DNA of 64,000 nt from an uncultured Sphingomonadaceae bacterium. GTDB taxonomy: Bacteria > Pseudomonadota > Alphaproteobacteria > Sphingomonadales > Sphingomonadaceae. The stretch covers positions 1 through 64,000 of the forward strand of contig CAIQHF010000044.1 in the NCBI GenBank assembly GCA_903871605.1. The letters are read 5' to 3'. The notes below the pieces were generated by a model, which was not told the DNA's origin, did not search any database, and saw only the letters and a list, made by a program, of their open reading frames with translations. Both the position numbers and the translations under genes were made by a program. Positions 8,030-35,667 of this stretch are shown here, one piece after another. Positions within the stretch are counted from its first letter, which is position 1, and each line of letters starts with the position of its first letter.

Positions 8030-9507
8030 GACAGTGGCTTGCGGCATCCCTGCTCGCGCTGAGCGTCGCCGGCTGCACGGCGGGGCCGAACTACCATATC
8101 CCCGCGGGCGCGATCGCCACCGCGCCCGCGGCGACCGGGGCGTTCGTCAACAGCGTCGAACCCGCCTTTTCTGCCGAGCCGCTGCCCGACCGCTGGTGGC
8201 ATCTCTACGATGATCCCCGGCTCGACGCCTATATCCAGGAGGCGCTCGCCGCGAACACCGATCTGCGCGCCGCCGACGCCAATCTGCGTCGCGCCGCATT
8301 CGCGATCCGCGAGGCGCAGGCGGCACGGACGGTTGGCACCAGCATCCAGGCGCAGGTCGAGCAGACCCGCTTCGGGGGGATCGACGCGCTCGACATCCCC
8401 GGCACCAGCTATGCGCTGGGTGCGGGGCTGAGCTATCCGCTCGATCTGGCCGGCGGGATCAGGCGGTCGATCGAGGCGGCGCGCGCCGATGCGCAGGTGA
8501 TCGAGGCGACGCGCGATCAGGTGCGCGTCACGGTCGCTGCGTCGGTCGCGCGCAACTATGTCGGCGTCTGCTCGGCCAATCGCTCGATCCGCGCCGCGCA
8601 GCGGGTCGTCGCGGTGCAGCGCTCGACGCTGGGCGCGATTACGCGGCTGTTCCACGGCGGGCGCGACACCGCCTTCGACGTGACGCGCGCGCAGGCGGCG
8701 GTCGACCAGAGCCTCGCCACCATCCCGACGATCGTCGCCGAGCGCCAGGCCGGGCTCTACGCGATCGCCGCGCTGATGGGCCGGCCGATCGCCGATTTTC
8801 CCCGCGAACTGGTCGACTGCGCGACGCCCCCGGAGATCCGGCGGCCTTTGCCGATCGGCGACGGCTCCGCGCTGATCCGTCGCCGCGCCGATATCCGCGC
8901 CGCCGAGCGCCGCCTCGCCGCCGCCACGGCCACGATCGGGATCGCGACCGCGGCGCTCTATCCGCAGGTCAGCCTTGGCGCCGCCGCGGGAATCGCGGGG
9001 CCGTTCTCGACGTTCGGCAATGCGGCGAGCTGGGGCGGCAATGTCGGCCCGTCGGTGTCGTGGAACTTCCCCAACCAGATCGCGGTGCGTGCGCGCATCT
9101 CGGAGGCGGGCGCCGCCGCCGAGGCGGCATCGGCGCAATTCGACGGCTCGGTGCTGACCGCGCTCCAGCAGACCGAGACCGCGCTTTCCGGCTATGCGCG
9201 CGAGATCGAGCATGACCGCGCGCTCGCCCGCGCCCGCGACAGCGCCGCCAAGGCGGTCGACCAGGCCAACCGGCTGTTCCGCTTCGGCCGCGCCGATCTG
9301 CTCTCGCTGCTTACCGTGCAGGCCAATCTCGCCACCGCCGAGACCGCGCTCGCCGCGAGCCAGGCGACGCTCGCCGACGATCAGGTCAACGTCTTCCTCG
9401 CGCTCGGCGGTGGCTGGGAGAACCAGCAACCGATCCCCTCGACCGCGCCGCATCTGAAGGGCGCGCTCAGGGCGGTGCCTCAGCTCTCGCCGAACAGCTC
9501 GCGCTGA
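8026..9507 (+). CDS. NodT-type outer-membrane efflux lipoprotein
   Basis: Outer-membrane factor of 493 residues from the TolC/OprM/NodT family. The GTG at 8026 overlaps the adaptor stop (GTGA). The leader MRQWLAASLLALSVAGC ends in a lipobox with the lipidated Cys at residue 17. The hallmark WWHLYDDPRLDAYIQEAL follows, then two OEP repeats, with ALYPQVSLGA and RFGRADLLSLLTVQ in the second. It completes a four-gene export system. Its last 28 bases overlap the 3' end of the convergent ClC gene (9480-9507). Confidence 0.92.
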   Translation: MRQWLAASLLALSVAGCTAGPNYHIPAGAIATAPAATGAFVNSVEPAFSAEPLPDRWWHLYDDPRLDAYIQEALAANTDLRAADANLRRAAFAIREAQAARTVGTSIQAQVEQTRFGGIDALDIPGTSYALGAGLSYPLDLAGGIRRSIEAARADAQVIEATRDQVRVTVAASVARNYVGVCSANRSIRAAQRVVAVQRSTLGAITRLFHGGRDTAFDVTRAQAAVDQSLATIPTIVAERQAGLYAIAALMGRPIADFPRELVDCATPPEIRRPLPIGDGSALIRRRADIRAAERRLAAATATIGIATAALYPQVSLGAAAGIAGPFSTFGNAASWGGNVGPSVSWNFPNQIAVRARISEAGAAAEAASAQFDGSVLTALQQTETALSGYAREIEHDRALARARDSAAKAVDQANRLFRFGRADLLSLLTVQANLATAETALAASQATLADDQVNVFLALGGGWENQQPIPSTAPHLKGALRAVPQLSPNSSR

Positions 9508-11234
9508 GCGCGTTCGAGCTCGTCGGCATAGCGTTTGCGGACATGCGTCTCGGTCAGCAGGCCGAGCAGCGCGCCGTCGGGATCGACCACCGCGAGATCG
9601 TCGACGCCGAGCCGGTCGAACGCCTGCATCACCTCGGCGATGTTGCGCTCGGGCGGCAGCGTCTCGTCGGGCCGGCGCGCGAGGCTCGCGACCGTCGCGT
9701 CGCGATCGACGCCGTCGACATAGGCGTTGGCGGTCGCGACCATGCCGGCATAATGATCGGCCTCGTCGAGCAGGATGACGCGGCTGGTCGAGCCCAGGGG
9801 GGTGCGCCTGCGGAATTCGGCGACGCTGGTCGCGGCGGGGACGGTGGCGGGCGCTTTGCGCATCATCTTGCCCGCGGTCAGCTGGCGCACCCAGCCAATG
9901 TCGCGCGCGGAGCGGATCACCTCGCCGCGCAGATGCAGCCGCCAGGTCGAGAAGCTGTAGCCGAATAGTTCGCGGACCAGCGCGCTGGCGACCAGCGAGG
10001 CGGTGAGCACGATCGCGGTGAGCTGGAAGTCGCGCGTCGCCTCGAGCACGAGGAAGCTCATCGTCATCGGCCCGCCGATCACCGACACCGCGAGCGCGGC
10101 CATGCCGACCAGTGCGGCATCCTGCGTCCACAGATGCTGGCCGGGGAGCAGGATCGCGGTGACGTCGGCATAGATGCGCCCGAGCAGGACGCCCAGGAAC
10201 AGCGAGGCGAAGAACAGCCCGCCTCGGAAACCGAAGCCCAGCGAGATCGACGAGGCGAGCAGCTTGAGCCCGAACACCAGGCAGAGCGCGGCGAGCGACG
10301 CCTCGCCCGCGAGCGTCAGATGGAGCGCGCCGTGCCCCGCCGACAGCGCCTCGGGCGAGAGATGCGCGATCGGCATGAGCAGGAAGCCACCGACCACGGG
10401 GCGCAGCGCAGGAGGCAGCCGGGTCCGGCGCACGCCCGCCTCGACGAGGCTCACCGCGCGCATCAGCGCAATGCCGACGAAGGCGCAGACCAGCCCGATG
10501 CCGATGAAGGCGAGATAGTCCATGTTGCGCGTGATTCCGGTCGAATCGACCGTGATCAGATAGGGGACGCCGCCCAGCGAGCGCGCGGTCGCGACGCCGG
10601 CGATCGCGGCGGCGGCGACGGGGGCGATCGCGGCGGGGGTGTAGGCGCCGATCACGATCTCGAAGGCGTAGAAGGCGCCGGTCAGCGGCGCGCCGAACGC
10701 GGCGCCGATCGCGGCACCCGTGCCCGCGCCGACCAGCGTGCGCAGGTCGCCGCGGCGGAGGCTGAGCTTGCGGCCGATCACCGAGGCGATCCCGCCGCCG
10801 ATCTGCGCATAGGCCGCCTCGAGCCCGACCGACGCGCCGAAGCCATTGGAGACGAAGGTCTGCCCGGTGACGGTCAGCGTGTCGCGGAACGGCACCGCGC
10901 CGCCGTGCAGCGCATTGGCCTCGACGACGTCGACCGGGGTGCGCTGGCGCCAGCGCTCGAGCGCGATGTGGAGCAGCCCGAGCATCGCGCCGCCGAGCGG
11001 AAGCGCCATCAGCCGCGGCCAGGCAAGCGTCGGTGCCGCGCTCAGCCGCATCGATCCGGGCAGGTCGTAGAGGATGCGCTGCAGCCCGTGCGCGGCCGCG
11101 CCCAGCGCCACCGACAGCCCGCCGCCGATCGTGCCGACGACGACCGCGAGCAGGATGAAGGTCGCCTCGCTTTGGCGAAGCCGCGTGCGCAGCGCCGTGC
11201 CCCGCCGCAATATGTTGGTCACCAGCACCGACAC
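9480..11234 (-). CDS. ClC-family chloride channel/antiporter with C-terminal CBS pair
   Basis: A 584-residue protein with about ten to twelve membrane segments and a C-terminal pair of CBS domains (last about 130 residues, ending DDLAVVDPDGALLGLLTETH). The GTG at 11234 is chosen because GGGAG lies six bases upstream; the longer frame runs through non-coding sequence. Canonical ClC motifs are altered: the usual GKEGP region reads GFGASVGLEAAYAQ, keeping the gating-type glutamate but losing Lys and Pro, and the usual GSGIP region reads VVEANALHGG. Ion selectivity is therefore uncertain. It could be an anion channel or a proton-coupled exchanger. Confidence 0.88.
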   Translation of the reverse strand: MSVLVTNILRRGTALRTRLRQSEATFILLAVVVGTIGGGLSVALGAAAHGLQRILYDLPGSMRLSAAPTLAWPRLMALPLGGAMLGLLHIALERWRQRTPVDVVEANALHGGAVPFRDTLTVTGQTFVSNGFGASVGLEAAYAQIGGGIASVIGRKLSLRRGDLRTLVGAGTGAAIGAAFGAPLTGAFYAFEIVIGAYTPAAIAPVAAAAIAGVATARSLGGVPYLITVDSTGITRNMDYLAFIGIGLVCAFVGIALMRAVSLVEAGVRRTRLPPALRPVVGGFLLMPIAHLSPEALSAGHGALHLTLAGEASLAALCLVFGLKLLASSISLGFGFRGGLFFASLFLGVLLGRIYADVTAILLPGQHLWTQDAALVGMAALAVSVIGGPMTMSFLVLEATRDFQLTAIVLTASLVASALVRELFGYSFSTWRLHLRGEVIRSARDIGWVRQLTAGKMMRKAPATVPAATSVAEFRRRTPLGSTSRVILLDEADHYAGMVATANAYVDGVDRDATVASLARRPDETLPPERNIAEVMQAFDRLGVDDLAVVDPDGALLGLLTETHVRKRYADELERAQRELFGES

Positions 11235-11416
11235 CGAACACTCCCGTCGGCCAGTGCCTAGAGTTTGTTGCGGCAGGGTTGAAGCGTTTTGCGACGTGCT
11301 CTCCGATCGGGGAGGGTGTCGGGGCCGGGGAGCGATGCGAAGCCGCGCCTCGGGTCGTCGCCGCACCAGTTCCGCCGGCCACCTTAACCCAACGCTCTTG
11401 CTCGAGGAAAAGGGAT
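11235..11416. other. 182-bp gap between the MerR gene and the ClC gene
   Basis: Both flanking genes are on the minus strand. The gap holds the SD of the ClC gene (GGGAG near 11241-11245) and G+C-rich sequence without a clear terminator or credible ORF. A ClC promoter is likely here, but no convincing -35/-10 pair was seen. Confidence 0.4.
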
Positions 11417-11857
11417 TTAGGGGTGGCTCCGGTCCGCCGCCTCCGCCGCGGTCACGCGCGCCAGCGCCTCGCACTCGATCTGGCGCAGTTCGGCGAGCGT
11501 CTGCTCGATCGCGGTCTGGTGCTGCTCCAGCTCCTCGATCCGCGCGCGCACCCGGTCGGCGAGCGCGCGCATCTGCTCGAGATGCTGCGGGTCGGCATCG
11601 TAGAGATCGAGGAAGGTCTGGATCTCGCGCAGCGAGAAGCCCAGCCTTTTGCCGCGCAGGATGAGCTGCATCCGGCCGACCTCGCGGCGCGTGTAGATGC
11701 GCGTGGTGCCGACGCGGCGCGGCTCGATCAGCCCCTTGTCTTCGTAAAAGCGCATCGTGCGCGTCGAGATGCCGAGCTCGGTCGCGACCTGCTGGATGCC
11801 GTGAAGTTCGCCCCATTCGGGCGCGGATGTCGCCGCGTCGCCCCCCGGCTCAGCCAT
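11417..11857 (-). CDS. MerR-family transcriptional regulator
   Basis: A 146-residue regulator with an N-terminal winged HTH: IQQVATELGISTRTMRFYED near 20-40, then GLIEPRRVGTTRIYTRREV. A dimerising coiled coil (about 95-130) follows. The only cysteine (in RQIECEAL) is isolated, so this is not a classic metal- or redox-sensing MerR. It overlaps the end of fadD by eight bases and closes the DUF2147-fadL-fadD operon. MerR proteins beside acyl-CoA genes in proteobacteria (LiuR type) control acyl-CoA catabolism; a role in regulating this fatty-acid locus is inferred from position. Confidence 0.9.
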   Translation of the reverse strand: MAEPGGDAATSAPEWGELHGIQQVATELGISTRTMRFYEDKGLIEPRRVGTTRIYTRREVGRMQLILRGKRLGFSLREIQTFLDLYDADPQHLEQMRALADRVRARIEELEQHQTAIEQTLAELRQIECEALARVTAAEAADRSHP

Positions 11858-13544
11858 GTTTGGCCTTTTCCTCGGCGACCAGCTCCTTCTTGGACAGCTT
11901 GCCGATCAGCGTCTTGGGCAGCTCGTCGCGGATCTCGATCGCGCGCGGGATCTCGATCCGGCTGAGCTTGTCCTTGAGGAAAGCGAGCAGTTCCTCGGGC
12001 GTGGCCGTCTGTCCGGGCGCGAGCGTCACGAACGCCTTGGGGGCCTGGCCGCGATAATCGTCGGGGATGCCGATCACCACCGCCTCGGCGACCGCGGGAT
12101 GCTCGTAGAGCGCCTCCTCGATCGTGCGCGGATAGACGTTGAACCCGCTCGCGATGATCAGGTCCTTCTGGCGGTCGACGAGGAACAGATAGCCGTCCTC
12201 GTCGAGATAGCCGATGTCGCCGGTGCGCAGCGCGCCGTCGACGAACACCTGCGCATCGGCGTCGGGGCGGTTCCAATAGCCCTTCATCACCTGCGGTCCG
12301 CGCGCGCAGATCTCGCCGCGCTCGCCGGTGGGCATCAGCTTGGTCGGGTCGTCGAGATCGCGGATCTCGATGATCGTGCCAGGGAAGGCGGGACCGGCGC
12401 TGTTGTCCTTGGGCGGCTTGTCGAGCGGGTTGCAGGTGATGATCGGCGACGCCTCGGACAGTCCGTAGCCCTCGACCACCGGCGTGCCGCTGCGCGTCTC
12501 GAATTTGTGGCGCGTGTCGTAGGGCAGCGGCGCGCCGCCCGAGATCGAGCGCTGCACCGTCTTGAGCTTGGCGAAATCGGCATCGGAGAGGTTGTTGAGC
12601 GCGCCGTAGATCGTCGGCACGGCGAGCAGCTGCGAGATTTTGGTGCGCTTTACCGCGGCGATCACCTGCTGGAGATCGAAGCGCGGCAGGAGCACCATCT
12701 CGGCGCCGGTGTCGATCGAATAGTTGAGCACCGAGGTCAGCGCGAAGACATGGAAGAGCGGTAGCACGCCGAGCGTGATCTCCTGCTCGTCGAGCCGCGC
12801 CAGATCCCCCACGAACGCCTTCATCTGCGCGCTGTTGGCGGTGAGATTGGCGTGCGTCAGCATCGCCGCCTTGGGCTCGCCGGTGGTGCCGCCGGTATAT
12901 TGCAGCACCGCGACGTCGTCGGGCGCGACCTTGGCGGACCTCGGGTGGCCGGCATTGGCGATCAGCGCGGCGAAACGGAGATGCAGCGCGTCGTGCGGGA
13001 CAGCGCCGATGTCCTTGCGCTTGAACAGCCGGTAGAGGATCGACTTGATCGGGGTCAGCGCGCCCGCGATCGGGCAGACGATCAGCTTTCCGACCGCGGT
13101 CTCGCGGCAGACCTTTCCGACGCGCGCGAGAATGTCGGGGATGTCGCAGGTCGCGATCAGCTTGGCACCCGAATCGGTGATCAGGTGGGTCAGCTCGCGC
13201 TCGACATAGAGCGGGTTGAGATTGACGACGATGCCGCCGATGCGCAGCGTCGCGAAATAGAGGATGATGTAATAAGGCGTGTTAGGCAGGCACAGCCCGA
13301 CGCGGTCGCCGGGCTCGACGCCGAGATCCTGCAGCCCGCGTGCCGCCTTCTCGACGAGTTTGCCGAGTTCGCGGTAGCGCGTCTCGCGGCCGAGGAAGTC
13401 GATCGCGACGCGGCCGGGCCAGGTGGCGACGGCATGGTCGAGCAGGTCGGTCAGCAGCCGCGGCGCGAAGACCGGGGAAGCGAGGACGTCGCGCTTCCCC
13501 GGCTGCGCCGGCCGCTCACTCTGGGTGAGGGCCGGCTCGGTCAT
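11850..13544 (-). CDS. fadD: Long-chain fatty acid-CoA ligase
   Basis: AMP-forming acyl-CoA synthetase of 564 residues that activates imported fatty acids. Adenylation motifs are YTGGTTGEPKAAMLTH (near 220), VVEGYGLSEASPI (near 345), GERGEICARGPQVMKGYW and the C-terminal DRQKDLIIASGFNVYPRTIE with catalytic-lysine region GKLSKKEL. Its ATG shares one base with the stop of fadL, and its 3' end overlaps the MerR gene, so import, activation and regulation are in one transcript. Confidence 0.95.
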   Translation of the reverse strand: MTEPALTQSERPAQPGKRDVLASPVFAPRLLTDLLDHAVATWPGRVAIDFLGRETRYRELGKLVEKAARGLQDLGVEPGDRVGLCLPNTPYYIILYFATLRIGGIVVNLNPLYVERELTHLITDSGAKLIATCDIPDILARVGKVCRETAVGKLIVCPIAGALTPIKSILYRLFKRKDIGAVPHDALHLRFAALIANAGHPRSAKVAPDDVAVLQYTGGTTGEPKAAMLTHANLTANSAQMKAFVGDLARLDEQEITLGVLPLFHVFALTSVLNYSIDTGAEMVLLPRFDLQQVIAAVKRTKISQLLAVPTIYGALNNLSDADFAKLKTVQRSISGGAPLPYDTRHKFETRSGTPVVEGYGLSEASPIITCNPLDKPPKDNSAGPAFPGTIIEIRDLDDPTKLMPTGERGEICARGPQVMKGYWNRPDADAQVFVDGALRTGDIGYLDEDGYLFLVDRQKDLIIASGFNVYPRTIEEALYEHPAVAEAVVIGIPDDYRGQAPKAFVTLAPGQTATPEELLAFLKDKLSRIEIPRAIEIRDELPKTLIGKLSKKELVAEEKAKHG

Positions 13545-21110: not shown

Positions 21111-22088
21111 TTATACCGGCGCGCGGCGGCCGCCGATCTCCTTCGCCTGCCACGCGATCAGCGCGGGAAGGCCGATCGCGACGTCGCGCGCGCGCTTGAT
21201 CAGCGACAGTGCGACCGCCGCTTCCGGGTCGAGCCCGATCAGCGGGCCGAGCAGCACATAGCCCGCCTCCTGCACGCCGATCGCGCCGGGCACGACGAAC
21301 GCCGCGCCGCGCAGCGCGAAGATCAGGCTTTCCAGCGCCACGACACGCCACAGCGCGATCGGCGAACCGATCATCGCCAGCACGAGCGCGGCGAGCGCGG
21401 CTGCATAGAGCCAGCCGATCAGGTTGAGCAGAAAGGAGAGCGCGACCGCACCCTTGCGCGCATAGATGTCGGCGAGCTCGGCGTGCAGCCGGTCCATCGA
21501 CAGCGCGCTGTCGGGCAGCAGCTTGGCGGCGAGCGCACCCGCCAGCCTGAGCATCGGGCGCTGCAGCACGATGAACGCCGCAGTCACCGCGATCGACACC
21601 GCGACGCCGATCCACGCAAGCGGCGCCACGCGATGCCGCGATTCGTCGAGCAGCAGCGATCCGAGCGTCGCCACCCCGAACAATGTGAAGGCGACCTGCG
21701 AGGCCATTTCGGTGGTGAGATCGACGACCATCGCGGCATAGACACGCGGCGCCGCCAGCCCCGCGCTGGTCAGCGCCCGTCCGCCGACGACGAGGCCGCC
21801 GATCTGGCTGAACGGCAGCAGGTCATTCGCCCCCTCCCGCGCCATCCGCGCCCACCCGAACAGCGGCAGGCGGCGGACCGGCTGGCCCGGCATCGACGCC
21901 CACCATGCCGCGCCGAGGATGGCGGAGAGCAGAAGGCTCGCCGCGCAGAAACCCACGAAGCCGCCCGCCCCCATGCGCAGCGCGGCATCGCCGAGCGCGG
22001 CGAACCCGACGCGGCCCATCGCCCATATCGCCGCGGCGAGGCCGAGAAGACTGGCCAGCGCGATCGGCAAGCGCAGGCGTGCGGTCAC
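21111..22088 (-). CDS. hpnL: Hopanoid-cluster membrane protein HpnL
   Basis: A 325-residue integral membrane protein of the lysylphosphatidylglycerol-synthase membrane-domain superfamily (UPF0104), with about seven to eight hydrophobic segments. The central REGANDLLPFSQIGG (near 85-99) and the late PGAIGVQEAGYVLLGPL (near 272) are family signatures. It starts at GTG 22088, overlapping the preceding gene by four bases. HpnL is conserved in hopanoid clusters with hpnI, hpnJ and hpnK, but its biochemical role is not established; flipping or headgroup handling is speculation. Confidence 0.88.
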   Translation of the reverse strand: MTARLRLPIALASLLGLAAAIWAMGRVGFAALGDAALRMGAGGFVGFCAASLLLSAILGAAWWASMPGQPVRRLPLFGWARMAREGANDLLPFSQIGGLVVGGRALTSAGLAAPRVYAAMVVDLTTEMASQVAFTLFGVATLGSLLLDESRHRVAPLAWIGVAVSIAVTAAFIVLQRPMLRLAGALAAKLLPDSALSMDRLHAELADIYARKGAVALSFLLNLIGWLYAAALAALVLAMIGSPIALWRVVALESLIFALRGAAFVVPGAIGVQEAGYVLLGPLIGLDPEAAVALSLIKRARDVAIGLPALIAWQAKEIGGRRAPV

Positions 22089-22984
22089 GTCGTCACGGGC
22101 GTCAGGCCGCCGCCGCGAATCAGGCGCAGCGCCAGTCGCATCATCGCGGGTACGAAGCGCGGCCGCAGCAGCCGCGCGTCATAGGGCGCGAGCCGGCGAT
22201 CATTCTCGGCAAGGCAGATGCGGGCCAGTTGCGCGAAGCTCACCTCGACGCCCAGTTCCTTCGATCCGTTGAGCGTGAAGTTATTCTCCCGCGCCCGGCT
22301 ATTGTCGCCCATTCCCTTGGCCATGTCGATCCGTTCCCAGATCAGCGCGATCCACACCGCGATCACCTTGGCCTCGAACAGCGGCCGGCGCCACCACGGC
22401 ATGTTGCGGCGCCACCACGCCACCCAGTTGACGAAGAACAGGATGTGGCGCGCCTCCTCGCGCATCACCGGCTCGAACGTGTCGACCAGTTCCGGCGGGA
22501 AGAAGCCGGTGTCCTCGGCGAGCCTGAACAGCCCGAACCCGAAGACGCTGTCGATGCATTCCGAATAGCCCGCGCGCATGAACGCCCATTCGGCGTCGCG
22601 CGGCGGCAGGGCCTCGGGCTCGGGTTCGATCGCGATGTCATAGGCGGCGACCAGATCGGAGAGGACAAGCTTGTGGCGGCTCTCCTCGAATGCGTCCATC
22701 TCGACCGCCGCCTTCAGCAGCGGATCGGCGACGGTCTCGCCGAACAGGCGGACGTAGAGCCCGGTCCGCCCCTCGGCGGCGACCGCCATGTCCCACACGG
22801 GTAGCGATACGATCCGCCGACGCGTCTCCTCGTCGAGCTTCGGCCACCGGATCAGCGCGGGGCGATAGGGATCGTGCGTATCGAGCAGCGTGCGGCAGAA
22901 CAGGCGCAGATGCGCCTCGCTGCCGCGCCGGACCGGCTCTCCAGGGGGAGGCGCCGGCGCCTCGATCCTCTCCATCATGCTCAT
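22085..22984 (-). CDS. Ferritin-like di-iron protein in the hopanoid headgroup operon
   Basis: A 299-residue protein with the metal-ligand pattern of a four-helix di-iron protein: E71, then E101-x-x-H104 thirty residues later, and E142, then E177-x-x-H180. Helices around these positions are strongly predicted by composition. A tryptophan-rich stretch (VNWVAWWRRNMPWW, near 185-198) may touch membrane. The ATG at 22984 overlaps the hpnK stop, and the TGA overlaps the hpnL GTG, so it is coupled between two hopanoid genes. Members of this fold are oxygenases, desaturases or oxidases; a hopanoid-modifying or headgroup-oxidising role is inference. I know of no hpn letter for it. Confidence 0.78.
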   Translation of the reverse strand: MSMMERIEAPAPPPGEPVRRGSEAHLRLFCRTLLDTHDPYRPALIRWPKLDEETRRRIVSLPVWDMAVAAEGRTGLYVRLFGETVADPLLKAAVEMDAFEESRHKLVLSDLVAAYDIAIEPEPEALPPRDAEWAFMRAGYSECIDSVFGFGLFRLAEDTGFFPPELVDTFEPVMREEARHILFFVNWVAWWRRNMPWWRRPLFEAKVIAVWIALIWERIDMAKGMGDNSRARENNFTLNGSKELGVEVSFAQLARICLAENDRRLAPYDARLLRPRFVPAMMRLALRLIRGGGLTPVTT

Positions 22985-23838
22985 GCGGCCACCTCGCTTG
23001 CCCGAAAATCGGCGAAACGCCCGAGCCGGATCGGGCGTTGCAGGATGCTGTCCCTGATCGACGGATCGATCAACGCGGCGAGTTCGTCGCGATAGGCGTA
23101 GCCCGGCGCCGATCCCGGATAGCTGTCCGCGCTCGCCGGGTGGCAATAGAGCTCGGTGATGCCGTCGGGCAGCTGATCGATCAGCGCGGCGACGCGGTCG
23201 CGCGTCATGTGGCCGCTCCAGGCGAGGCCGAGCACGCGATCGGGCACGAACAGCCCCGCATCGCGGAATCGACGCGCGACCGCGCGCGCATAGGGTGCGG
23301 CGATCCGGCCGGCGAGCGTCTGCGGCACGGCCTCGATCCGGCCGAGCAGATCGAGAGGCTCGACCGGCGCGCGCGCCGCCGCCAGCCCGTAGCGGCGGCC
23401 GATCTTCAGGATCAGCCCGGCGATCGTCGGGTGGAGATGGAAATGCTTGTGCGCGTTGACATGGTCGAGCGGCAGCCCGGTCGCATGGAAGGCGGCGAAC
23501 TGCGCCTCGATCTCGGCGGCGAGTTGCTTGCGGACCGCTGCGCGGAAGAACATGGCGGCGCCCGCCAGCGCCATGTTGGTGCGGAAATGGCCGGTGGCAT
23601 CGACCAGATCGGGAATGTGCGCGGGCGGCAGCACGGGGCGGCCCTCGACGAGCACGAGATGCAGCCCGACCCCCAGCCCTGGCAGTCGTTTCGCCCGCGC
23701 GACGGCGTCGGCGGCGGCGTCACCCGCGACCATCAGGCTGGCGGCGGTGAGGATGCCATGCGTGTGCGCCTGCTCGACCGCGTCGTTGACCGCTGTCGCG
23801 ACACCGAAGTCGTCGGCGGTGACGATGAGAGTCTTCAC
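22981..23838 (-). CDS. hpnK: Hopanoid glucosamine deacetylase HpnK
   Basis: A 285-residue YdjC/ChbG-fold carbohydrate deacetylase. GTG at 23838 gives MKTLIVTADDFGVATAVNDA, the family's metal-binding opening (TADDFG). Further ligands are in GVGLHLVLVEGRPV and VNAHKHFHLHPTIA. In hopanoid producers HpnK removes the acetyl group from N-acetylglucosaminyl bacteriohopanetetrol made by HpnI, before HpnJ acts. The start was chosen by motif position and GAGG eight bases upstream. Confidence 0.93.
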   Translation of the reverse strand: MKTLIVTADDFGVATAVNDAVEQAHTHGILTAASLMVAGDAAADAVARAKRLPGLGVGLHLVLVEGRPVLPPAHIPDLVDATGHFRTNMALAGAAMFFRAAVRKQLAAEIEAQFAAFHATGLPLDHVNAHKHFHLHPTIAGLILKIGRRYGLAAARAPVEPLDLLGRIEAVPQTLAGRIAAPYARAVARRFRDAGLFVPDRVLGLAWSGHMTRDRVAALIDQLPDGITELYCHPASADSYPGSAPGYAYRDELAALIDPSIRDSILQRPIRLGRFADFRASEVAA

Positions 23839-23951
23839 GAGTCCGCCCTCGGGGGTTGGTTGAAACATGGCGCGCTACGCCGCGCAGCACACGCGCATCG
23901 CCCCGTGCCAGCCCTGGTGTCTGCACCACGCATCGGACACCGCTCCGCCGG

Positions 23952-23988: not shown

Positions 23989-25437
23989 TTATGCCGCCTT
24001 CTTGCGGTTGTGCAGGAAGCTGAAGAACTCGACGCCCTCGCGCAGGCGGCGCTTCATCATGTCCCAGTCGCGCACCATCTCGCCGACGATCGAGCCGATC
24101 TTGCGCGGGCGGAAATAGAAGCGCTTGTAGAATTCCTCGACCTTGTCGAAGATCAGGCTTGCCGGCAGATGCGGGTAGCTCAGCTGCGCGATCTGCGTGC
24201 CGCCGTCGGTGAGCAGTTCGTTCGAATTGTCGAACCAGCCATTCTCGGTCGCCTGCTTGTAGAGGAAGGTGCCCGGATAGGGCGCCGCCAGCGATACCTG
24301 GATGGTGTGTGGGTTGATCTCCTGCGCGTAGCGGATCGTCTCCTCGATCGTCTCCTCGGTCTCGCCGGGCAGCCCCAGGATGAAGGTGCCGTGGATCGTG
24401 AGACCCAGCGCGTGCGCATCCTTGGTGAACTGGCGCGCGACGTCGACGCGCAGCCCCTTCTTGATGTTGTGGAGAATCTGCTGGTTGCCGCTCTCATAGC
24501 CGACCAGCAGCACCCGGCAACCGCCTGCCTTCATCGCGGCGAGCACCGGCCGCGGCACGTTGGCCTTGGCGTTGCAGCCCCAGGTGACCGGGAAGCCGGG
24601 CTTGCCGAAGCCGAGCTTGGCGAGCTCGCCCGACAGCTCGACGACGAAATCATGCGCGTCGGCCAGCGTGTCGTCGTCGAAGAAGATCTCCTTCACCTCG
24701 GGCATCGCCTTGAGGATGTACTGCACCTCCTCGATCACCTTGGGCACGCTGCGGTGGCGATAGCGGTGGCCGCTGATCGTCTGCGGCCACAGGCAGAAGG
24801 TGCAGCGGCTCTTGCAGCCGCGCCCGGTGTAGAAGGAGACATAAGGGTGGCGCTGATAGCCGCCATAATATTTCGAGGTGTCGAGATCGCGCCGGTAGAT
24901 CGGCGAGACCATCGGCAGCACGTCCATGTCCTCGATCTGCGCGCGGTCCTTGTTGCGCACGATCGTGCCGTCGGGCGCCCGCCAAGTGATGCCGTCGATC
25001 TCCGCCAGCGGCCGGCCTTCAGCGAGCTCGACGCAGGTGAAATCATATTCCTCGCGGCAGACGAAATCGATCGCGGGGCTCGCCTGCAGGCTCTTCTCGT
25101 CCTCGATCATCACCTTCGCGCCGACCATGCCGACCAGCGCCTTGGGGTTGCGCGCCTTGACCAGCTCGGCGGTCTGCACGTCCTGGCGGAAGCTCGGCGT
25201 CGAGGTGTGGAGGATGATGAGGTCGCGGTCGTCGATCTCGTGCTTGATGTCGTCCCAGCTCTGGTCGTGCGCGGGCGCGTCGATCAGCCGCGAGCCCTCG
25301 ATCATCGCGGCGGGTTGCGCCAGCCAGGTCGGATACCAGAAGCTCTTCACTTCGCGCTTCATCTGGTAGCGCGCGCCGGCACCGCCGTCATAGCCGTCGA
25401 ACGAGGGGCCCTGCATGAAGAGCGTGCGCAGCGTCAT
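23989..25437 (-). CDS. hpnJ: Hopanoid radical SAM enzyme HpnJ (cyclitol ring contraction)
   Basis: A 482-residue radical SAM protein with an N-terminal B12-binding-like domain. The [4Fe-4S] motif is C208, C212 and C215 in GRGCKSRCTFCLW. LVGYESGNQQIL and GTFILGLPGETEET are typical of the class. HpnJ converts glucosaminyl-BHT to the cyclitol ether headgroup. The ATG at 25437 has GGAGA six bases upstream and overlaps the hpnI stop by four bases. Confidence 0.95.
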   Translation of the reverse strand: MTLRTLFMQGPSFDGYDGGAGARYQMKREVKSFWYPTWLAQPAAMIEGSRLIDAPAHDQSWDDIKHEIDDRDLIILHTSTPSFRQDVQTAELVKARNPKALVGMVGAKVMIEDEKSLQASPAIDFVCREEYDFTCVELAEGRPLAEIDGITWRAPDGTIVRNKDRAQIEDMDVLPMVSPIYRRDLDTSKYYGGYQRHPYVSFYTGRGCKSRCTFCLWPQTISGHRYRHRSVPKVIEEVQYILKAMPEVKEIFFDDDTLADAHDFVVELSGELAKLGFGKPGFPVTWGCNAKANVPRPVLAAMKAGGCRVLLVGYESGNQQILHNIKKGLRVDVARQFTKDAHALGLTIHGTFILGLPGETEETIEETIRYAQEINPHTIQVSLAAPYPGTFLYKQATENGWFDNSNELLTDGGTQIAQLSYPHLPASLIFDKVEEFYKRFYFRPRKIGSIVGEMVRDWDMMKRRLREGVEFFSFLHNRKKAA

Positions 25438-26675
25438 TGAGATTTCTCCGTCTCGGCCGACAGGCGGCCGTCTGCTGCCATATGAAGCCGGCTTCCCCGC
25501 CAATCAACCGAGCGCGTGAAGAAGGCGGCGACATAGAGGCCGAAAGACAACAGGTCGCGCGCGGGCAGCCACCACAGCGGGGCGGTCTGGCGGCCGACCA
25601 AGGCGTCGATCCGCGCCGCGAGCGCCAGCCGGGCTAACAGCGCCACGCCGATCACCCAGCCGCCGGCGCCGCACGCCACCGCAAGCAGGCTCCAGGCGAA
25701 GCCGTGGGTGACCGCGCTGCCGGCATAGCCCGCCGGATCGAGCATGCGCACCGTCGCGTTCCAGCGCAGCTCGTGCCGCCAGAGCGCCGCGAGGCTCGAT
25801 TCGCTGCAGGCGTGGAGCACGATCGGCGGCGCGACCACGACCTCGAGGCCCAGCGCGCGCACCGCCGCACCGATCGCATGATCGTCGGCGAGCAGATCGG
25901 CGAAGGGGGCGAAGCCGCCGATCGCCTCGAGCGTCTTGCGGGTGAGCGCGATCGTCGAGCCCATGCAGGGATGCGCAAGCCGGCAGGCGACGCCGACCAT
26001 CACCGAGGGCAGGAATCCCCAGCTGATTCCCGCCGCCGCCATCCGCGACCAGCCATTGGTTTCGCCGACGCCGGCATAAGGCAGCGTCACCGCGCCGACC
26101 CCCGGTCGGGCGAGCAGCGTCGTGACCGATTCGGCATAATGGCGGTCGACGATCATGTCGCTGTCGCTGAGGATCAATATGTCGCCGCCGGCTTGGGGCA
26201 GCATGTTGATGAGATTGGAGACCTTGCCGTTGGCGCCGTGCCGATCCGCGGCCGTCACGATTGTTACGCGGGCCAGCCGCGCGTGCACCGCGCGCGCCGC
26301 GTCGAGCGCGGGATCGGCCGGGTCGGCGACGCCGCAGACCATGTCGATCGGGCCGGGATAGTCCTGCTCGAGGAAGCCGGCGAGCTTGGTCTCGAGCATC
26401 GGCTCGGGGCCGTGCAGCGGCTTGAGCATGGTGATCGACGGCCACTCGGCTGCCGCATCCCCGTTCCCCGGCGCAGGCCGGGGCCCAGGCCCGACGCCTG
26501 AAGCAAGCGCCGCGCGACCCGCGAGTTCGGGCATGGACCCCGGCCTCCGCCGCGGAACGCCACCCGCTTCGCCGCGCGGCGCGCGCCAGCGTCCGGCGAG
26601 CATCGCGGCACCAAGCGTGTAGGCGGTGCCGATCATCGCGAGGAGGGTCAGCACGAGGGAGAGGATGGCGATCAC
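25434..26675 (-). CDS. hpnI: Hopanoid glycosyltransferase HpnI with an in-frame repeat insertion
   Basis: GT21-family (ceramide glucosyltransferase-like) enzyme of 413 residues that adds N-acetylglucosamine to bacteriohopanetetrol. It has an N-terminal membrane anchor (2-28), the DxD-type ILSDSDMIVD near 157, LADDHAIG near 252, RHELRWNATVRML near 291 and C-terminal membrane helices. The GTG at 26675 has AAGGAG five bases upstream. Residues 40-71 (VPRRRPG to PAPGN) are encoded by a 96-bp inverted-repeat element, a multiple of three, placed between the anchor and the catalytic domain. That segment is Pro/Arg/Gly rich and unlike the rest of the protein. Confidence 0.93.
   Translation of the reverse strand: MIAILSLVLTLLAMIGTAYTLGAAMLAGRWRAPRGEAGGVPRRRPGSMPELAGRAALASGVGPGPRPAPGNGDAAAEWPSITMLKPLHGPEPMLETKLAGFLEQDYPGPIDMVCGVADPADPALDAARAVHARLARVTIVTAADRHGANGKVSNLINMLPQAGGDILILSDSDMIVDRHYAESVTTLLARPGVGAVTLPYAGVGETNGWSRMAAAGISWGFLPSVMVGVACRLAHPCMGSTIALTRKTLEAIGGFAPFADLLADDHAIGAAVRALGLEVVVAPPIVLHACSESSLAALWRHELRWNATVRMLDPAGYAGSAVTHGFAWSLLAVACGAGGWVIGVALLARLALAARIDALVGRQTAPLWWLPARDLLSFGLYVAAFFTRSVDWRGSRLHMAADGRLSAETEKSQ
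26463..26558. repeat. REPIN-like inverted repeat inside hpnI
   Basis: Left arm GTTCCCCGGCGCAGGCCGGG at 26463-26482, then GCCCAG. The right arm, reading inward from 26558, is its near reverse complement (GACCCCGGCCTCCGCCGCGG then AAC). The same arm type recurs in intergenic copies at 59034-59112 and, with other inner bases, at 33758-33825. The 96-bp length keeps hpnI in frame. Confidence 0.75.
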
Positions 26676-26753
26676 GCCGGCTCCTTAACAGCAGGTCATG
26701 TGTCGCGCACTTCCTTCCCATTTGCGATCGGCGTGCCTAGAAGCGCGACCGGC
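26676..26753. promoter_or_regulatory. Divergent promoter region hpnI / hpnA
   Basis: Seventy-eight bases separate the two arms of the hopanoid cluster, so both promoters must lie here or overlap the starts. It holds the hpnI SD AAGGAG. No strong -35/-10 pair was recognised in either direction. Confidence 0.5.
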
Positions 26754-27752
26754 ATGGCGAATGGCGAGACGATCCTGGTGACCGGCGTATCCGGCTTCGT
26801 CGGTGCCGCGGTCGCGCGCGCCTTCGCCGCCGACGGCTGGCAGGTCCGCGGACTGGCGCGCGCGACCAGCCCGACCACCAATCTTGCAGGCTTCCCCGGC
26901 ACGATCGTGCACGGCGACATGCTCGACGGCGCCTCGATTCGCGCCGCGCTCGATGGTTGCGCCGCGCTTGCCCATGTCGCCGCCGACTATCGGCTGTGGG
27001 CGCCCGACCCGCAAGAGATCGTCCGCCACAACCGCGAGGGCACGCGCACCGTGATGGAGGCGGCGCTCGCCGCGGGGGTGAAGCGGATCGTCTATACGAG
27101 CAGCGTCGCGACGATCGCGCCGCTCGATGGTGGTGCGGCAGGCGAGGACCGGCCGCTGACCGAGCAGACGGCGATCGGCGCCTATAAGCGCTCCAAGGTG
27201 GTCGCCGAACGACTGGTCGAGGCGATGGTGGCGACGCATGGTCTGCCCGCGGTGATCGTCAACCCCTCGACCCCGATCGGCCCGCGCGACGTGCGCCCGA
27301 CGCCGACGGGGCGTATTCTCGTCGAGGCGGCGAACGGCAAGATGCCCGCCTTCGTCGATACCGGGCTCAACCTCGTCCATGTCGACGACGTCGCGCGCGG
27401 TCATGTCCTCGCATTGGCGAAGGGGCAGCTCGGCCGCCGTTACATATTGGGCGGCGAGGATGTCATGCTGGAGACCTTGCTGGGCGAGGTCGCGCGGCTG
27501 GTCGGGCGCAGGCCGCCGACCGTCTCGCTGCCGCGCGGCCCGCTGATGCCGCTCGCTCTGGTTTCGGAGACGTGGGCGCGGCTGACCGGCCGCGAGCCGA
27601 TGCTGACGCGCGATGCGCTCAGGATGTCGCGTTACCGCATGTTCTTCGCCTCCGATCGCGCGCGTGCCGAACTCGGCTACGCGGCGCGGCCTTGGCGGCA
27701 GGCGGTAGCCGACGCACTCGGCTGGTTCCGCGAACAGGGGATGATCCGGTGA
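26754..27752 (+). CDS. hpnA: Hopanoid-associated sugar epimerase/dehydratase HpnA
   Basis: A 332-residue NAD-dependent extended SDR. The Rossmann motif TGVSGFVGAAVARAF is near residue 10. The catalytic pair is a Ser in YTSSVATIAP (near 118) and YxxxK in GAYKRSKVVAE. NPSTPIGPRDVRPTPTGRI is typical of HpnA. MANGETILVTG is taken as the start because the Rossmann fold must begin near the N-terminus. HpnA is the conserved first gene of many hpn operons; its exact substrate remains unsettled. It overlaps hpnB by four bases. Confidence 0.93.
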   Translation: MANGETILVTGVSGFVGAAVARAFAADGWQVRGLARATSPTTNLAGFPGTIVHGDMLDGASIRAALDGCAALAHVAADYRLWAPDPQEIVRHNREGTRTVMEAALAAGVKRIVYTSSVATIAPLDGGAAGEDRPLTEQTAIGAYKRSKVVAERLVEAMVATHGLPAVIVNPSTPIGPRDVRPTPTGRILVEAANGKMPAFVDTGLNLVHVDDVARGHVLALAKGQLGRRYILGGEDVMLETLLGEVARLVGRRPPTVSLPRGPLMPLALVSETWARLTGREPMLTRDALRMSRYRMFFASDRARAELGYAARPWRQAVADALGWFREQGMIR

Positions 27753-33837: not shown

Positions 33838-34602
33838 ATGATTCTCGTCGCATGCGGCATGAAGCGCGAGGCCAAGGCGCTCGCGCGCGACGGCGTGACG
33901 ACCGTCGTTGCCGGCACCGACGCGACGCGTTTCGAGGCCGAGCTCGAGGCGGGCGTCGCAGCGGGGGCGACCGCGATCCTCAGCATGGGGCTGGCGGGCG
34001 CGCTCGCGCCGCGGCTCGCGGTCGGCGACTGGGTGGTCGGCACGCTGTCGCCGACGGGGATGGAGCGGCGCGAATGGAGCGTCGGTGCCGGTGCCTCGCG
34101 GCCGCCCCGCGAACGCCGCAGCGATCCGCAGCCGACCGCGCGCAAGGAGGCCTCGTCAGGGTGGATCAGCCGGATCGCGGCGTTGCTGCCAGGCGCGGTG
34201 GTCGGCCGCATCCACGCCGACGGATCGATGATCGTCACCGCCGCGCAGAAGGAGGAACTGCATTTCTCCCAGCGCGCGCTCGCCTGCGACATGGAGAGTC
34301 ACATCGCCGCGCGCGTCGCGGCGCGGCACGGGCTGCCGTTCGCGGTCGCGCGCGTCGTCTCGGATGCCGCCGATCGCACGCTGCCACGCGCGACGCAGGT
34401 CGCGATGGCGCCGGACGGCGGGATCCGGATCGGCGCGGTGCTGCTCGCGCTGCTGATGCGGCCGTGGCAGCTTCCCGCGCTGATCGGCGTCGGTCTCGAC
34501 GCCGGTCGCGCGATGAAGGCGCTAGCCCGCGGTTACGACATGCTTGCTGGAGCCGGGTTTGGTCTTGGCGATCAGCGCAAGCTCGCGCTCGACATGCGTT
34601 GA
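33838..34602 (+). CDS. hpnG: Adenosylhopane nucleosidase HpnG
   Basis: Phosphorylase-superfamily protein of 254 residues that releases adenine from adenosylhopane to give ribosylhopane. SMGLAGALAPRLAVGDWVVG is near residue 49; the family's substrate-binding segment ACDMESHIAARVAARHGLPF is near 149; VSDAADRTLP follows. GGGAG, eight bases before the ATG, is at the edge of the repeat. Residues about 78-110 are a hydrophilic insertion. The last 81 bases overlap the convergent hpnH gene; the motif LAGAGFGLG near the end fits the family C-terminus, so both ends look genuine. Confidence 0.92.
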   Translation: MILVACGMKREAKALARDGVTTVVAGTDATRFEAELEAGVAAGATAILSMGLAGALAPRLAVGDWVVGTLSPTGMERREWSVGAGASRPPRERRSDPQPTARKEASSGWISRIAALLPGAVVGRIHADGSMIVTAAQKEELHFSQRALACDMESHIAARVAARHGLPFAVARVVSDAADRTLPRATQVAMAPDGGIRIGAVLLALLMRPWQLPALIGVGLDAGRAMKALARGYDMLAGAGFGLGDQRKLALDMR

Positions 34603-35667
34603 GAACACGTCCTCGGCGGGGCGGGCCCGGCTGAGATCGATGTCGGGCGCCATCGGGCCGGTGGTGCGCACACCCTTGCGGCCGACGCTCATGAATTTCA
34701 GCGGATGGCGGATCCCGTCGGTCGCGGCCGTCCCCTCGAAGCCGCAATGGACCATGCAGTCCGAGCATTTCTCGTACTTGCCGACGCCGTACTGATCCCA
34801 GTCGGTGCCTTCCATCAGCTCGGCGAAGGTCTTCACATAGCCTTCGCCGACGAGGTAGCAGGGCTTCTGCCAGCCGAAGACCGTGCGCAGCGGCATCGAC
34901 CAGGGCGTGCATTCGTAGCTCTGGTTGCCGGCGAGGAAATCGAGGAAGAGCGGCGAATTGGTGAAGGTCCACGCCTTGCCGCCATCGCCGCGCGAGAAGA
35001 CGTCGCGGAAGAACGTCTTGGTGCGCTCGCGGCTGAGGAAATGCTCCTTGTCGGAGGCGCGCTCATAGGCATAGCCGGGCGAGATGGTGATCTCGACGCC
35101 GAGCCTCTTCATGTCGTCGAAATAGGCGGCGAGGCGGGCGGGGTCGGCGCCGTCGAACACGGTGCAGTTGACCTGGACGCGGAAGCCCTTGGCCTTGGCG
35201 AGCTCGATCGCCTCGATCGCGACGTCATAGGTGCCGTCCTGGTCGACGGCATGATCGTGCATGCCCCTGTCGCCGTCGAGATGGATCGACCAGGTGAAAT
35301 AGGGAGACGGCTGATAGTCGTCGATCTTCTTCTTGAGCAGCAGCGCGTTGGTGCACAGGATGACGAACTTCTTCTTGGCGATATAGCCCTTGACGATCTT
35401 GGGCATGTCGCGGTGGAGCAGCGGTTCGCCACCGGCGATCGAGACCGCGGGCGCGCCGCACTCGTCGATCGCCTCCATGCACTGATCATAGCTCAGCCGC
35501 TGGTTGAGGATCGCGTCGGGATAGTCGATCTTGCCGCAGCCGGGGCAGGCCAGATTGCAGCGCAGCAGCGGCTCGAGCATCAGCACCATCGGGTATTTGC
35601 CACCCTTGATATGCTGTTTGAGCGCATAGGCGCCGATGCGCGTGACGACGGGGAGGGGAAGACCCAT
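34522..35667 (-). CDS. hpnH: Adenosylhopane synthase HpnH (radical SAM)
   Basis: A 381-residue radical SAM enzyme that joins 5'-deoxyadenosyl to diploptene, the first step of side-chain extension. The cluster motif is C37, C41 and C44 in RCNLACPGCGK. SIAGGEPLLHRDMP near 95, CTNALLLKKKI and a C-terminal cysteine set (KCSDCMVHCGFEG) complete the SPASM-like tail. It lies nine bases downstream of ispH and is probably co-transcribed. Its tail is antisense to hpnG over 81 bases. Confidence 0.96.
   Translation of the reverse strand: MGLPLPVVTRIGAYALKQHIKGGKYPMVLMLEPLLRCNLACPGCGKIDYPDAILNQRLSYDQCMEAIDECGAPAVSIAGGEPLLHRDMPKIVKGYIAKKKFVILCTNALLLKKKIDDYQPSPYFTWSIHLDGDRGMHDHAVDQDGTYDVAIEAIELAKAKGFRVQVNCTVFDGADPARLAAYFDDMKRLGVEITISPGYAYERASDKEHFLSRERTKTFFRDVFSRGDGGKAWTFTNSPLFLDFLAGNQSYECTPWSMPLRTVFGWQKPCYLVGEGYVKTFAELMEGTDWDQYGVGKYEKCSDCMVHCGFEGTAATDGIRHPLKFMSVGRKGVRTTGPMAPDIDLSRARPAEDVFSTHVERELALIAKTKPGSSKHVVTAG

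Follow-up and report, generated by a model that had tools for sequence, protein, structure and literature searches.

The R2-like ligand-binding oxidases (R2lox) and the ribonucleotide reductase R2 proteins contain di-metal sites formed by pairs of E and ExxH residues. MiaE, the tRNA 2-methylthio-N6-isopentenyladenosine hydroxylase, acts on an isoprenoid side chain.

Hopanoids of the pentol and hexol type occur as lipids in membranes and as biomarkers (molecular fossils) in sediments. A survey of 54 alphaproteobacterial strains, published in November 2025 (PMC12583986), stated that the genes for bacteriohopanepentol and bacteriohopanehexol were unknown, with no candidate near the hpn clusters. 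The hopanoid desaturase genes were also given there as unknown. Two possible routes to the pentol were considered: hydroxylation of the CH2 beside the tetrol, or oxidation followed by hydration; the survey leans to the latter. According to its text, pentols occur in the Rhodospirillales and the Sphingomonadales, not in the Hyphomicrobiales; in Table 3, Enterovirga has an entry of 1%. Hexols were reported from the Rhodospirillales only.

The window, that is, the whole stretch of 64,000 nucleotides analyzed here, carries a gene between hpnK and hpnL that belongs to a hopanoid-linked family covered by no Pfam or NCBIfam model. This family is newly added here as a candidate for the missing pentol and hexol genes, which makes the question directly testable.

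Gene and operon structure

The features of the window, together with selected features of other loci, are listed in Table 1. NCBIfam cut-offs were passed by HpnL, HpnK, HpnJ, HpnI, HpnA, HpnB, HpnC, HpnD, HpnE, squalene-hopene cyclase, HpnH, and HpnN (TIGR03480). The divergent cluster has the order hpnA-hpnB-hpnC-hpnD-hpnE-shc, followed by an HpnG-like ORF, and extends to about position 34602; hpnH and hpnN lie beyond. The HpnG-like ORF scored under the HpnG cut-off in the frame given.

The first-pass annotation of this DNA had described a gene coupled by four-base overlaps to hpnK upstream and to hpnL downstream, and the bases confirm this. The sequence ATGA at 22981-22984 contains the stop of hpnK and the start of the di-iron gene; GTGA at 22085-22088 contains the stop of the di-iron gene and the predicted GTG start of hpnL. 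The dN/dS values against three orthologues of the same genus were 0.16, 0.21, and 0.26. The gene is real and under purifying selection, and its E...ExxH motif is beyond chance. No electron-transfer partner or reductase gene for the protein was found in the window operon.

Table 1. Features of the window and of selected other loci.
Locus	Feature	Coordinates	Strand	Details
Window	Putative ferritin-like di-iron protein gene, clade A	22085..22984	-	ATG start, 299 aa; ORF list, ligand conservation, AlphaFold model, Foldseek, family tree
Window	hpnL	21111..22088	-	NCBIfam TIGR03476, 273 bits, cut-off 196; GTGA overlap with di-iron gene
Window	hpnK, deacetylase of BHT N-acetylglucosamine	22981..23868	-	NCBIfam TIGR03473, 374 bits, cut-off 233
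Window	hpnJ, radical SAM, cyclitol ether formation	23989..25437	-	NCBIfam TIGR03471, 738 bits, cut-off 578
Window	hpnI, BHT glycosyltransferase, first gene of hpnI-J-K-[di-iron]-L	25434..26675	-	NCBIfam TIGR03472, 386 bits, cut-off 310
Window	hpnA, first gene of divergent cluster	26700..27752	+	NCBIfam
Window	hpnH, adenosylhopane step making the extended side chain	34522..35667	-	NCBIfam TIGR03470, 499 bits, cut-off 225
L041 (G415)	hpnI-hpnJ-[di-iron gene]-hpnL	9313-12651
L045 (G429)	Clades A and B in one ORF	8273-10222		650 aa
L088	Clade B example	11850-12695		Directly after clade A; likewise in 15 other named loci
L083	Gene-less hpnK-hpnL junction with mini-ORF	10840-10990		15 codons
L084	Gene-less hpnK-hpnL junction with mini-ORF	10820-10960		10 codons
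L047	Alanine-dehydrogenase-like gene	10434-11549
L053	Alanine-dehydrogenase-like gene	8059-9183
L060	Alanine-dehydrogenase-like gene	10280-11383

Protein family and predicted structure

The window protein has the half-sites E71-x29-E101xxH104 and E142-x34-E177xxH180. Two half-sites of the form E-x(30-35)-ExxH had been annotated in the first pass; both are present and the second spacing falls in that range, but the first is one residue short. The family search yielded 104 stretches, and removal of five under 230 aa and of one fused protein left 98 for the conservation analysis. One of the five short stretches is the second copy of genome G163, whose shortness comes from the choice of start site; it was later assigned to clade B. 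All 98 sequences (at least 230 aa) are identical at the six ligand candidates, and also at E100, E176, R103, R179, and H25.

Searches of the window protein against NCBIfam (threshold E 1), Pfam (E 10), and the PDB sequences (phmmer, E 10) all came back without a match. Among 45 family members, 10 each showed weak Pfam matches (E up to 0.1) to AurF, Ferritin_2, and Rubrerythrin, with best E values of 0.011, 0.00013, and 0.0086, respectively. Searching the PDB sequences with the family profile (E up to 10) gave two matches. One was a glutathione transferase, aligned over a short stretch ahead of the first half-site (E 0.066); the other was the MiaE-like chain 5ux1, whose alignment spans both half-sites and is not significant (E 0.17).

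The AlphaFold model of the window protein (pLDDT 84.4, pTM 0.84) places the ligands on four long helices (64-82, 88-114, 131-159, and 164-194). Foldseek gave R2lox structures as the nearest PDB entries (TM 0.53-0.54, first ranks), together with ribonucleotide reductase R2, at a probability of 1.00. None had E < 0.001, and the structural match is at the superfamily level only. Modelling had been one of the checks suggested for the ferritin-like pattern, and it returned a ferritin-like helical bundle with ferritin-like di-metal proteins as neighbours. The most suitable reading of the window protein is a ferritin-like di-iron protein whose family has no Pfam or NCBIfam model; its metal binding is inferred.

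Co-occurrence and genomic context

The di-iron gene was found in 27 of 385 genomes of the class sample (window genome included), distributed over 15 families. HpnH was over its cut-off in 106 of these 385 genomes, including all 27 positives. The phylum sample gave 17 matches in 398 genomes, 14 of them strong, and HpnH was present in 49 genomes, including all 14 strong positives. The remaining three matches (G279, G597, and G693; E about 5e-4 over about 100 positions) come from genomes without HpnH over cut-off and were excluded from the count. The hypergeometric P values are about 5e-17 (class) and 3e-14 (phylum); phylogeny is not accounted for, and some genomes occur in both samples. A co-occurrence search with the headgroup genes and hpnL had been proposed earlier, and its extension to HpnH bears out the link to hopanoids. 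The di-iron family tracks extended-hopanoid synthesis, although co-occurrence with HpnH shows a link and not a reaction. Since 79 of the 106 HpnH-positive class genomes lack the gene, it cannot be counted among the core steps of tetrol formation.

Among 98 relatives of the window genome, nine carry the di-iron gene, each with an HpnK match within 60 nt; HpnK was over cut-off in 14. The plasmid collection contained the gene in 13 records, from Burkholderia, Cupriavidus, Caballeronia, and Paraburkholderia. Squalene-hopene cyclase was found in 46 plasmid records, and the cyclase replicons of Azospirillum, Sinorhizobium, Mycetohabitans, Methylobacterium/Methylorubrum, Bradyrhizobium, and Roseomonas are absent from the 13 di-iron records. 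This comparison was made by eye and is weak, and the gene may lie elsewhere in those genomes.

According to the first-pass annotation, the hopanoid reading would fail if most homologues lay away from hopanoid loci and had another assigned role. Many copies do lie apart from the hpn genes, yet the strong positives are all HpnH-positive, and we know of no other role for this family. The weak Ferritin_2 and Rubrerythrin matches would fit an iron-binding protein without catalytic activity or with a protective role, similar to ferritin or rubrerythrin and resident in hopanoid operons by chance. However, strong matches are limited to HpnH-positive genomes in both samples, even where the gene is apart from the hpn genes, and the diverged paralogue described below is found solely alongside clade A. 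Such a bystander seems hardly credible.

Named loci were obtained by scanning the species-genome collection with the window HpnK, and the best 80 of 474 relatives were kept. The di-iron gene, or a piece of it, is present in 44 of these 80 loci, always on the hpnK strand. In 40 of the 44, the di-iron match starts at most 250 nt from where the hpnK match ends, and in 39 an hpnL match starts at most 250 nt from where the di-iron match ends. Separately, in L041 (genome G415) the order is hpnI-hpnJ-[di-iron gene]-hpnL, and hpnK is not matched in the interval from hpnJ to the di-iron gene.

The first-pass annotation had placed the gene with the headgroup enzymes. In the window, the gene shares bases with both hpnK and hpnL, and in 40 of the 44 loci (which were chosen by HpnK) it lies close to hpnK; both observations would suit a modifier of the headgroup (cyclitol ether or glucosamine) that HpnI, HpnK, and HpnJ build. 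However, HpnI was over cut-off in just 12 of the 26 positive class genomes other than the window genome. The other 14, some of which are incomplete drafts, weaken this reading. In L046 (G163) and in L081 (Cupriavidus metallidurans), the di-iron gene adjoins hpnA/hpnB, hpnH and hpnN are close by, and neither stretch has any hpnI-K match. The di-iron family does not track the cyclitol headgroup, so that the headgroup framing was not upheld and modification of the headgroup appears quite unlikely. The side chain is the likelier target for hopanoid tailoring.

Phylogenetic clades and gene loss

The family tree contains two clades, separated by a long branch with full support. Clade A (77 rows) includes the window gene along with the copies from Burkholderia and Cupriavidus; clade B has 22 rows, and the ten members in the alignment are 30-33% identical to the window protein. 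All 16 second copies in the named loci (best 80 of 474 by HpnK) belong to clade B, each directly after clade A. Eight genomes of the class sample gave two matches; the G280 pair consists of two fragments, which leaves seven genomes with two copies. No genome had clade B alone, among all copies placed in the tree or by best score. Both clades are joined in a single ORF in L045. The nine positive relatives of the window genome have one match each, of clade A. The loci L102 (labelled Rhizobium), L124 (Rhizobiales), and L155 (Hyphomicrobiales) carry both clades, unlike the Methylobacterium/Methylorubrum loci; these labels are possibly wrong.

Twenty named genomes picked from the best 80 of 474 were searched in full; some are also among the 98 relatives, and the two sets are not independent. 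Six carry the gene: Sphingomonas mali, S. pruni, S. asaccharolytica, S. vulcanisoli, S. lycopersici, and Novosphingobium nitrogenifigens. It lies between hpnK and hpnL in S. mali and N. nitrogenifigens. No di-iron gene was found anywhere in the other 14 genomes, namely Zymomonas mobilis, a Zymomonas MAG, seven Methylobacterium/Methylorubrum species (including Methylorubrum rhodesianum), Novosphingobium sediminis, Sphingomonas oligoaromativorans, two Sphingomonas sp., and Hansschlegelia zhihuaiae. Both Z. mobilis and M. rhodesianum do have hpnI, hpnJ, and hpnK. The hpnK-hpnL junctions of S. oligoaromativorans and Sphingomonas sp. PR090111-T3T-6A retain ATGA and GTGA around an ORF of only 10 or 15 codons, and in one such junction the end of the mini-ORF resembles, by eye, the C-termini of the di-iron genes. 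These junctions are consistent with loss of the gene by internal deletion, which would therefore indicate an accessory function.

When the ORFs lying up to 5 kb from the gene were compared all against all across 25 loci, no partner gene common to many loci emerged. The clusters covered at most four loci, apart from the di-iron gene itself and apparent overlapping reading frames; hydratases were not specifically targeted. In three genomes of three families, the di-iron gene is immediately followed, on the same strand, by a gene that resembles alanine dehydrogenase (identified by eye).

Proposed function

Lipid data are available for some species of the survey (PMC12583986). Its Table 3 gives pentol plus hexol as 90% in S. 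mali and 15% in N. nitrogenifigens, and 0% pentol in Methylorubrum rhodesianum, the last in a strain other than the genome searched here. Both matched pentol producers thus have the gene and the one matched non-producer lacks it; only three of the 54 survey strains are covered, at the species level. The pentol producers of the survey's Table 3 also include Stakelama sediminis, Sphingomonas formosensis, S. haloaromaticamans, Sphingobium estronivorans, nine Acetobacteraceae, Enhydrobacter, Nitrospirillum, and Skermanella. Table 2 of PMC8590665 shows that a Rhodopila strain produces bacteriohopanepentol cyclitol ether, and a feature in a Burkholderia cenocepacia strain was annotated as likely bacteriohopanepentol cyclitol ether (PMC8560942). 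The m/z values in PMC8560942 are about 724.5 for this compound and about 708.5 for its tetrol counterpart. The B. cenocepacia di-iron gene comes from the plasmid collection, in a strain other than the one profiled for lipids. No paper describing the di-iron gene was found in searches of open-access PMC papers, among which Schmerk et al. 2015 on the B. cenocepacia hopanoid pathway did not come up.

The gene is proposed to encode a non-heme di-iron monooxygenase of the ferritin-like type, which would add a hydroxyl at C-31 of the extended-hopanoid side chain and so give bacteriohopanepentol. We hold this to be the probable function, with considerable room for doubt, since the metal content, O2 chemistry, substrate, and position are all inferred, and there is no biochemical or genetic test. 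The observed basis is the gene itself, the predicted fold, the invariant ligands, the co-occurrence with HpnH, the independence of HpnI, and the agreement with the few phenotyped species. The first-pass suggestion of a di-iron hopanoid-tailoring enzyme gains support from the fold, the ligand conservation, and the HpnH co-occurrence, as an inferred function and not a demonstrated one. The C-31 position is assigned to clade A, and C-30 tentatively to clade B, because of the pentol and hexol data of the survey, the matched genotypes, and the single clade A copies in the relatives.

In the proposed mechanism, two iron ions would be bound by E71/E101/H104 and E142/E177/H180. The irons would activate O2, with electrons assumed to come from a general donor. 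One oxygen atom would be inserted into the C31-H bond, adjoining the tetrol of bacteriohopanetetrol, either before or after the headgroup is attached. Together with HpnI, HpnK, and HpnJ, this might yield bacteriohopanepentol cyclitol ether. More tentatively than for clade A, the clade B paralogue is read as a second hydroxylase, which would act at C-30 and form bacteriohopanehexol.

Some observations count against the C-31 role. A MAG labelled Rhizomicrobium (L139) carries the gene, whereas Rhizomicrobium palustre has only 1% pentol (PMC12583986). The genes in L102, L124, and L155 likewise stand against the absence of Hyphomicrobiales pentols from the survey text. A step that requires O2 may also be in conflict with the Rhodopila producer, because that strain was grown both anaerobically and aerobically (PMC8590665, Table 1); the section does not state which culture was behind the LC-MS extract.

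Another oxidation of the side chain might be catalyzed instead, for example one giving a 32-oxo intermediate, with hydration to the pentol as the following step. This is the route argued for in the survey (PMC12583986), and it would give an identical co-occurrence with HpnH. The supporting 32-oxo compound, cited there from Flesch and Rohmer 1989, came from Zymomonas mobilis, whereas the Z. mobilis genome searched here has no di-iron gene. In a simulation paper (PMC12969272), the Z. mobilis membrane is modelled on lipidomics data and contains tetrol cyclitol ether and tetrol glucosamine. The lack of the gene in most HpnH-positive class genomes and the lack of a widely common partner gene beside the 25 copies, in a comparison that did not target hydratases as such, also count against oxidation and hydration, which is judged unlikely, though it still has to be reckoned with.

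Soluble di-iron proteins include desaturases, and the family might be a ring desaturase that makes the Delta-6 or Delta-11 unsaturated bacteriohopanepolyols, whose genes are likewise missing. B. cenocepacia has the gene, and other features of its profile were annotated as unsaturated (PMC8560942). However, unsaturated BHPDs are 0% in both S. mali and N. nitrogenifigens, which carry the gene and make pentol and hexol, and these phenotypes weaken the desaturase reading. Unsaturated compounds reach only 0-1% in the Sphingomonadales, and the high values are in the Rhodospirillales and Afipia broomeae (PMC12583986, Table 3). A ring desaturase is thus given very little weight.

If C-31 hydroxylation is correct, genomes could predict the pentol and hexol producers; if the enzyme needs O2, these lipids would be tied to oxygen. 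The two clades might form a di-iron pair working in two steps, first at C-31 and then at C-30; gene content alone (none, A, or A plus B, including the A-B fusion) would then predict tetrol, pentol, or hexol across the Proteobacteria, and side-chain hydroxylation could be read from genomes as an O2-dependent trait in the fossil record of hopanoids. This wider scheme is offered as a possibility only, with more doubt than confidence.

Comparison with known systems

The window protein resembles R2lox and ribonucleotide reductase R2 in its predicted ferritin-like helical bundle, with TM about 0.4-0.5 for R2. However, the identities are only 11-18%, and without a phmmer match or a low Foldseek E value there is no match at the family level. 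The genome context of the di-iron family is also confined to hopanoid producers, unlike that of R2lox and R2. The MiaE alignment covers both half-sites, although the glutathione transferase scored better, and MiaE differs in both substrate and gene context. AurF, Ferritin_2, and Rubrerythrin are each matched weakly by part of the family, not exclusively, and the window protein itself matches none of them. The ring methylases HpnP and HpnR are, like the di-iron family, accessory and patchily distributed modifiers of hopanoids, as far as the survey describes them (PMC12583986). They methylate ring A, and HpnR is a B12-dependent radical SAM enzyme by the name of its NCBIfam model, whereas the present family is of the di-iron type and its proposed target is the side chain.
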